A program made the position numbers and the translations under genes. From Oscillospiraceae bacterium (lineage in GTDB: Bacteria; Bacillota_A; Clostridia; Oscillospirales; Oscillospiraceae), in assembly GCA_015068175.1 (NCBI GenBank), contig SVLA01000085.1, positions 1-8,920 of the forward strand: a stretch of DNA of 8,920 bases, in the 5' to 3' direction. The notes under the pieces were generated by a model that searched no databases, was not told the DNA's origin, and was given only the letters and a program-made list of their open reading frames with translations. This document shows, one piece after another, positions 8,693-8,920 of the stretch (position 1 is the first letter of the stretch; each line of letters begins with the position of its first letter).

Positions 8693-8726
8693 CGCCCCTG
8701 CGCCACCCGGTGCAGGGGCGTTTTTT
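8693..8726 (+). terminator. Strong terminator of gap
   Basis: A 12-bp, GC-rich stem (8693-8704 with 8709-8720, one G-T wobble) with an ACCC loop is followed immediately by six T (8721-8726). Confidence 0.95.
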
Positions 8727-8755
8727 ACCATTTGAAAATTTTCCGGAAATGCCCC

Positions 8756-8784
8756 TTGCCGTTTTCGGAAAATCATGTTATAGT
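8756..8784 (+). promoter_or_regulatory. Promoter for the gene at 8901
   Basis: TTGCCG (8756-8761), 17-nt spacer, TATAGT (8779-8784) with an extended TGT. The predicted start is near 8791, so the leader to ATG 8901 would be about 110 nt. Confidence 0.75.
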
Positions 8785-8790
8785 AGCAAA

Positions 8791-8843
8791 GTCAGCGGAA
8801 CGCCGCCTGAGATCAAAATACGAAATGACATGGAATTTGCGTA
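8791..8843 (+). promoter_or_regulatory. Leader with candidate antiterminator hairpin
   Basis: The first leader hairpin pairs CAGCGG (8793-8798) with CCG and CTG of 8803-8809 (one bulged C, AACG loop). A second pairs TACGAAAT (8819-8826) with ATTTGCGTA (8835-8843), one bulged G, 8-nt loop. The latter uses bases that form the 5' arm of the terminator at 8827-8875, so the two are mutually exclusive. I do not recognise a known riboswitch class here. Confidence 0.5.
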
Positions 8844-8875
8844 CGAAAAGACTACGCAATTTCTATGTCTTTTTT
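8827..8875 (+). terminator. Intrinsic terminator inside a leader (attenuator)
   Basis: A long stem pairs 8827-8843 with 8853-8869 (GACAT...ATGTC outer, TTGCGTA...TACGCAA inner), with a single T/T mismatch, one G-T wobble and a 9-nt loop. Six T follow directly (8870-8875). It lies between the promoter at 8756 and the ribosome site at 8884, so it must be bypassed for the downstream gene to be expressed. Alternatively it ends a small RNA of about 85 nt. Confidence 0.8.
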
Positions 8876-8900
8876 AATTTTTGAAAGGTGGTAATTCCAT

Positions 8901-8920
8901 ATGACCAAGAACAATAATCA
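8901..8920 (+). CDS. Start of an unidentified gene (runs off window)
   Basis: ATG at 8901 is followed by codons for Thr-Lys-Asn-Asn-Asn to the window edge. AAAGGTGG (8884-8891) lies 9 nt upstream. The residues are too few to identify the product. The start is supported by the ribosome site and the upstream promoter and attenuator. Confidence 0.6.

Follow-up and report, generated by a model that had tools for sequence, protein, structure and literature searches.

A leader with a covarying intrinsic terminator upstream of a putative small basic protein gene looks like a transcription attenuator

The closest described systems are the rimP-leader and the leaders of greA and rnk. For the rimP-leader of the ylxS/nusA/infB operon, Naville and Gautheret argued that a protein reads the terminator stem (PMC2965389); in the passages devoted to this leader, the argument is based on a conserved stem and a U tail in the absence of an antiterminator or a sensing domain. 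The greA and rnk leaders are described in the corresponding passages as each having a clear antiterminator (PMC2965389). In the portions of a separate study that deal with the greA leader, overproduced GreA lowered expression through the leader and led to more GraL, which is the product of termination; the D41A mutant of GreA gave no repression (PMC6829880).

The leader described here lies on the + strand at the end of the window (the whole 8,920-nt stretch of DNA that was analyzed), downstream of a GAPDH gene (identified by Pfam) that is followed by a terminator-like hairpin at 8693–8720. It is made up of the following features:

8756..8784, + strand: sigma-70-type promoter, TTGCCG-17-TATAGT with an extended -10 (TGT before the hexamer), consensus score 9/12
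8791..8818, + strand: 5' leader, forming a small hairpin (8792–8810) or a basal helix with 8879–8905
8819..8829, + strand: first copy of a direct repeat, of which 8819–8826 is a proposed but unsupported antiterminator strand
8827..8843, + strand: terminator 5' arm, from folding and covariation
8842..8852, + strand: second copy of the direct repeat, in the terminator loop
8853..8869, + strand: terminator 3' arm, from folding and covariation
8870..8875, + strand: terminator U tract TTTTTT, read in the sequence
8879..8905, + strand: 3' strand of the basal helix, spanning the Shine-Dalgarno (SD) sequence and start codon
8886..8891, + strand: SD sequence AGGTGG, read in the sequence
8901..8920, + strand: first 20 nt of the putatively controlled gene, ATG at 8901, MTKNNN(H/Q), family predicted from leader homology

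The promoter is as described in the first-pass annotation, which had also noted the ribosome site before the ATG at 8901 and the imperfect direct repeat, confirmed here with 10 of 11 bases equal. Transcription would start at approximately 8791, around 7 nt past the -10 hexamer. Two near-identical palindromes, TTTCCGGAAA and TTTTCGGAAA, are located 22 bp apart at 8740–8749 and 8762–8771, the second within the spacer of the leader promoter. They are either operator-like or an instance of common promoter-spacer composition; the latter is possible because TTTTCGGAAAA is also found near promoter-like sequence in loci L099 and L100. At the other end of the window, a block including ggtatcctctgttttttatggaatgggattcgaaaggccggccccgaaggggtaaaaacgtgccggtgg is present in two copies (approximately 220–300 and 402–470), with a terminator-like hairpin at 215–238.

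The strong intrinsic terminator reported earlier was present: the hairpin at 8827–8869 folds at -19.3 kcal/mol (z -7.5), none of 200 shuffles was equally stable, and TTTTTT follows directly. Its 9-nt loop exceeds the maximum of 8 nt allowed by the consensus terminator scanner, which missed it. The distance from transcription start to terminator is 36 nt, too short to hold a large sensing domain. A first hairpin, previously suggested to be part of a ligand- or protein-sensing domain, does exist at 8792–8810 with modest stability (-7.9 kcal/mol, z -2.1, 9/200 shuffles equally stable, folding 8791–8811); the sensing role itself was unsupported, and the surrounding 5' leader is the least conserved part. 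No Rfam family matched the window leader at its gathering score; the first-pass annotation had likewise matched it to no known riboswitch, T-box, or ribosomal-protein leader. The best match in a lax search of 8740–8920 reached 22.9 bits, where the cut-off is 45.

Matches to the GAPDH gene came from Oscillospiraceae and other Clostridia genomes, the closest (96%) from the MAG Oscillospiraceae bacterium RGIG3008. The gene that follows gap (the GAPDH gene) varies among the relatives compared, and the GAPDH neighborhood was discarded as a means of naming the gene at 8901 by synteny. In one relative (L025, from 7009), the end of the GAPDH gene and its downstream terminator recur approximately 300 nt later, which would fit either a tandem duplication or a fault in the assembly. 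BLAST with the leader DNA produced short fragments only, in sets of 10 and 200 genomes; those in L096 and L102, before an S15-like gene, match the SD region only, and an rpsO leader was dropped as a candidate.

A covariance model built from the window leader alone (R1) had no match in 37 nearer-looking genomes and five matches at E ≤ 1 in 136 genomes of the nearest genus. The top three (L157, E 0.002; L158, 0.004; L159, 0.013) have E-values that apply per genome and are individually weak across 136 genomes; the case for them is that all three converge on one protein family (114–124 amino acids), lying directly upstream of its genes on the correct strand and at the correct distance. The other two matches (L160 and L161) are at other hairpins, not ahead of the family, and were set aside. 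A protein search of the same 136 genomes detected the family in three, exactly those with R1 leaders; the chance of three of five R1 matches coinciding with family genomes is 2e-5. Between terminator and SD, the window aligned with L157 in 55 of 67 columns, L159 in 56 of 68, L158 in 46 of 66, and L165 in 44 of 65. We conclude that the leaders of the window and its relatives are, as judged from their sequences, homologous. The gene at 8901, which the first-pass annotation had left without a name and which runs for 20 nt before the window ends, is on the basis of leader homology a probable member of this family.

Several family proteins start in a manner akin to MTKNNN(H/Q): MKNNNPQYFP (P0040), MKNNNTQQFP (P0014), and MTKSMSH (L169). 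The pattern MTKNNN was found within one mismatch in 4 of 400 genomes; three of these had no open family frame, and the remaining one, L133 (G207), encodes an alpha/beta-type small acid-soluble spore protein (SASP) that starts MMKNNNQ... with one mismatch and matches Pfam PF00269 at 2e-30. A non-family gene at 8901, such as a SASP, would fit this short start, yet the 280 nt preceding the L133 gene contain no terminator of this kind, the locus has no R1 match, all three R1 matches with a full leader precede the protein family, and the family starts quoted above resemble the window start equally. We therefore regard it as highly improbable that the gene lies outside the family.

Ten loci were compared: the window and nine relative loci (L157, L158, L159, L165, L167, L168, L169, L170, and L171). 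A promoter scoring at least 9/12 is found upstream of the gene in all ten, and nine, the exception being L169, carry between promoter and SD a hairpin with a folding energy of at most -12 kcal/mol and a U tail, defined as at least five T in the seven positions after the hairpin. The SD sequence AGGTGG or AGGCGG also occurs in L157, L158, L159, L165, and L169. As controls, 808 other starts at the loci were considered; 186 had a promoter 70–260 nt upstream, and 13 of these had a terminator under the same rule. Fisher's test gave 5e-9 for 9/10 against 13/186 and 3e-7 for 7/8 when the window and L167 were left out, p-values that are too small because the loci are related and that are hence upper bounds on surprise. 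L167, with a leader of approximately 310 nt in which two terminators in tandem are followed by approximately 190 nt more to the gene start, was scored over a wider stretch (the 310-nt leader) than the controls. The arrangement that led the first-pass annotation to propose a transcription attenuator (promoter, U-tailed terminator, SD, gene) thus recurs in 9/10 loci. The relatives' loci contain one Rfam match, a T-box in L168 (689–912, - strand, 102 bits) outside the leader at 1825–1959.

The terminator stem also covaries. An alignment of five sequences with 15 base pairs has 93% of its cells paired, and in 5/15 pairs both partners have changed; one shuffle in 500 was as good, and slid registers reached only 19%–46%. 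The arms in this alignment were cut to fit the stem, which biases it towards the stem. This covariation, like the leader order, the terminator, and the link to a protein family, was established by computation. The stem arms, with the motif GACATaGT.aTTGCG, are 63%–90% identical compared with 44%–53% for third codon positions and 47%–64% for the upstream leaders under global alignment (six pairs, four relatives for the codons). This letter conservation covers five sequences and 30 columns, and the terminators of L168, L170, and L171 have other letters. By comparison of the sequences, the stem looks to be under constraint in its letters as well as its pairing.

Two other readings of the leader were weighed. 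The terminator could be a plain unregulated brake that gives constant low read-through and weak expression, with no factor reading the stem. The failure to find a sensing domain or an antiterminator is consistent with such a brake, as is the retention of terminator position with other letters in the distant leaders; however, conservation of the stem letters in the five nearer leaders exceeds that of the upstream leader and of third codon positions, beyond what a brake would need, and we consider it somewhat unlikely. Alternatively, the terminated product of approximately 85 nt could be a small RNA that acts elsewhere, with read-through into the gene as a side product or with both outcomes in use, as for GraL, which is reported in the relevant portions of the greA leader study to act both in trans and in cis (PMC6829880). 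The leader has its own promoter, a strong terminator, and a well-kept 3' half, but its upstream part, where such RNAs usually bind their targets, is poorly conserved, and there is no Rfam match; we consider this reading quite unlikely.

The first-pass annotation had proposed mutually exclusive hairpins, in which 8819–8826 pairs with 8835–8843 in competition with the terminator under ligand or protein control. This pairing is possible, and while the growing transcript ends between approximately 8842 and 8854 it is the most favorable fold; the terminator then replaces it. By itself it is worth -2.9 kcal/mol (z -1.55, 21/200 shuffles equally stable), which is within chance and approximately 16 kcal/mol weaker than the terminator, and 919 of 1,000 shuffled leaders paired equally well with the terminator 5' arm of the window. 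Pairing between upstream leader and 5' arm was above shuffles in none of nine leaders (the window and eight relatives, L167 excluded; best z -1.15), and the direct repeat could not be made out when the leaders of L157, L158, L159, and L165 were aligned. The antiterminator was rejected on these grounds; conservation of the 8819–8843 pairing in orthologues, by which the proposal itself had set out to be judged, was not found, and a switch of this kind is scarcely probable. A common leader peptide was also rejected. In the window, an open frame runs from an ATG at 8825 through the terminator to a TGA; the frame across the 3' arm continues into the main ORF in L162/L159 and L163/L158 and stops in L164/L157, so that no peptide common to them is apparent.

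The full window leader (8788–8905) folds into one long rod of -42.8 kcal/mol, in which 8791–8794, 8797–8800, 8802–8808, and 8813–8818 pair with 8879–8905 around the terminator, so that start codon and SD are both covered. For the duplex of the outer arms (8788–8812 with 8884–8906), in which 8791–8808 pairs with 8886–8905, the energy is -20.0 kcal/mol and the mean of the shuffles -7.5 (z -5.5), and the SD is paired with a probability of 0.99, compared with 0.69 when the left arm is shuffled. Control could be mainly translational, if the rod conceals the start codon and SD and the terminator-like hairpin is no more than its tip. None of 1,000 shuffles gave a window rod as good, and in L169, which lacks a U-tailed terminator, a rod covers the SD. 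Across nine leaders (L167 excluded), however, the basal helix is clearly above shuffles only in the window (z -5.2), L157 (-4.0), and L169 (-3.8), and weakly in L159 (-2.3), L158 (-2.2), and L171 (-1.9); there is no excess in L165 (-1.5), L168 (-0.6), or L170 (+1.8), and the rod is absent from L168 and L170. SD pairing was clearly better than in shuffled leaders for the window (0/200) and L158 (7/200) and marginally so for L171 (15/200), and the other leaders tested (without L167) did not exceed shuffles. The terminator is the more constant element, and predominantly translational control is very doubtful. In some species the basal helix may act as a second lock; alternatively, part of it may only be A and U tracts that lengthen the terminator.

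The protein search returned 227 proteins, and a wider profile search returned 598 at E ≤ 0.01 among 7,994 candidates scored. Among the matches listed (120 per search), there was no precomputed Pfam domain, and those with names were called "hypothetical protein." Searches of 32 members gave nothing convincing in Pfam (best E 0.0027, HTH_31 in one member) and single matches only in NCBIfam (best E 0.015). The relatives' genes are not rimP. The family proteins have a median length of 115 and a median pI of 9.7 (n = 181), the C-terminal part reaching pI 11.6–12.0 in three proteins, and the consensus LRExLRxxA...RLSRSVARLTSCDxLPCLEYGEEV...LFYLQHCRxALERCI...LRYRWxDGTVTxTRFRKxGPxRVKVTG. AlphaFold2 predicted a two-helix hairpin and three strands (pLDDT 84, pTM 0.74). 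A PDB sequence search with the family produced no match, and of 448 Foldseek matches at E ≤ 10 none reached 0.001; the matches from the structure searches were to coiled-coil proteins, including Gfh1, DksA2, and GreA, and were of middling quality only. The near-invariant D40, E46, and Y47 at the hairpin tip correspond to D41, E47, and Y48 of E. coli GreA in a comparison of two consensus sequences. The GreA_GreB Pfam domain had no match at E ≤ 10 in 32 plus 5 members, and hhalign, with shallow alignments, gave a probability of 0.2% whether the target was E. coli GreA by itself or a set of ten close GreA proteins; homology behind the likeness at the hairpin tip is thus not supported by profile comparison at this alignment depth.

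The family is patchy, occurring in 3/136 genomes of the genus and 7/400 of a family-level sample (one of these being among the three). It was found in 5 of 213 relatives of genome G256, with no new locus, and two genus searches for further family genomes gave one genome each. A mobile or viral origin was considered and rejected: no family member was found in IMG/VR (pattern and tblastn), in phages searched with P0004, or in plasmids searched with P0083, and 15 members searched with PADLOC and PHROGs yielded single matches only (E 0.017 or worse). L158 and L157 have no neighbor in common downstream of the family gene; the next frames are presumably, judging by eye, a xanthine phosphoribosyltransferase and a PfkB-type sugar kinase. 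Among the papers listed in literature searches, none dealt with the leader or the protein family, which is no proof of absence.

Overall, the leader is real and looks regulatory, and it does not look like the proposed two-hairpin switch. It appears to represent an attenuator class absent from Rfam 15, upstream of a family for which no Pfam or NCBIfam assignment was found, with control of a known kind. RNA polymerase starting at approximately 8791 would be expected to end most transcripts at 8870–8875 in vivo. We infer that there is no internal antiterminator and that a trans-acting factor recognizing the terminator stem sets the level of read-through. The likeliest such factor would be the encoded basic protein, which would exert autogenous negative feedback by increasing termination within its leader, and in the window and some relatives the helix that links the SD with the leader's 5' end could mean that mistimed full-length RNA is also poorly translated. 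A rimP-leader-type attenuator of this design, in which a trans factor, most likely the encoded protein, reads the stem and the basal helix adds a second lock in some species, is a real possibility that we favor tentatively. In our analysis, autogenous control by the basic family protein appears to be the likeliest single mechanism, given the rimP-leader pattern with its proposed stem-reading protein and the autoregulation of GreA through its GraL leader, with the constant brake as the main rival.

A more specific version, which we think rather unlikely, is that these proteins are small factors of a new kind, binding RNA or acting on RNA polymerase, and control their own level via the terminator of their own leader in a GreA/GraL-like loop, with an unrelated or very distant coiled-coil protein and a translational lock in some species. 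An unexplained leader is now tied to a protein family not named in the libraries searched, and the family gains its first functional clue, expression gated by a terminator whose stem appears to be under selection. If the product acts on the stem, the leader would be a ready reporter of its activity and a further case, beside rimP and greA, of a possible transcription or RNA factor controlled via termination in its own leader.

Compared with known systems, the locus shares the attenuation order of promoter, leader, terminator, and gene with ribosomal-protein leaders, T-boxes, and riboswitches, but the window leader has no Rfam match and is too short ahead of its terminator for a large sensing domain. 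Like the greA and rnk leaders and GraL, it has a 5' terminator before the gene of a small protein, here one with a predicted coiled-coil hairpin, and the greA product is reported, in the portions of the study cited above, to raise termination in its own leader (PMC6829880). Unlike those leaders, for which antiterminators are described in the passages concerned (PMC2965389), none was found here, and neither hhalign nor Pfam showed a sequence relation between the proteins. The rimP-leader differs in its GGGc...gCCC stem upstream of rimP, as given in the passages devoted to it, whereas the stem here is GACATGGAATTTGCG, before another gene and without an Rfam match, and an SD helix is added in part of the members. 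The likeness to the rimP-leader as described there (PMC2965389) is otherwise extensive: both are short, hardly more than a terminator with a conserved stem motif and no visible antiterminator, both lie at a variable distance from the gene, and both at times carry two tandem terminators. The features that mark a rimP-leader-type system, conserved stem letters and no antiterminator, were both found here, in a comparison of five sequences only.
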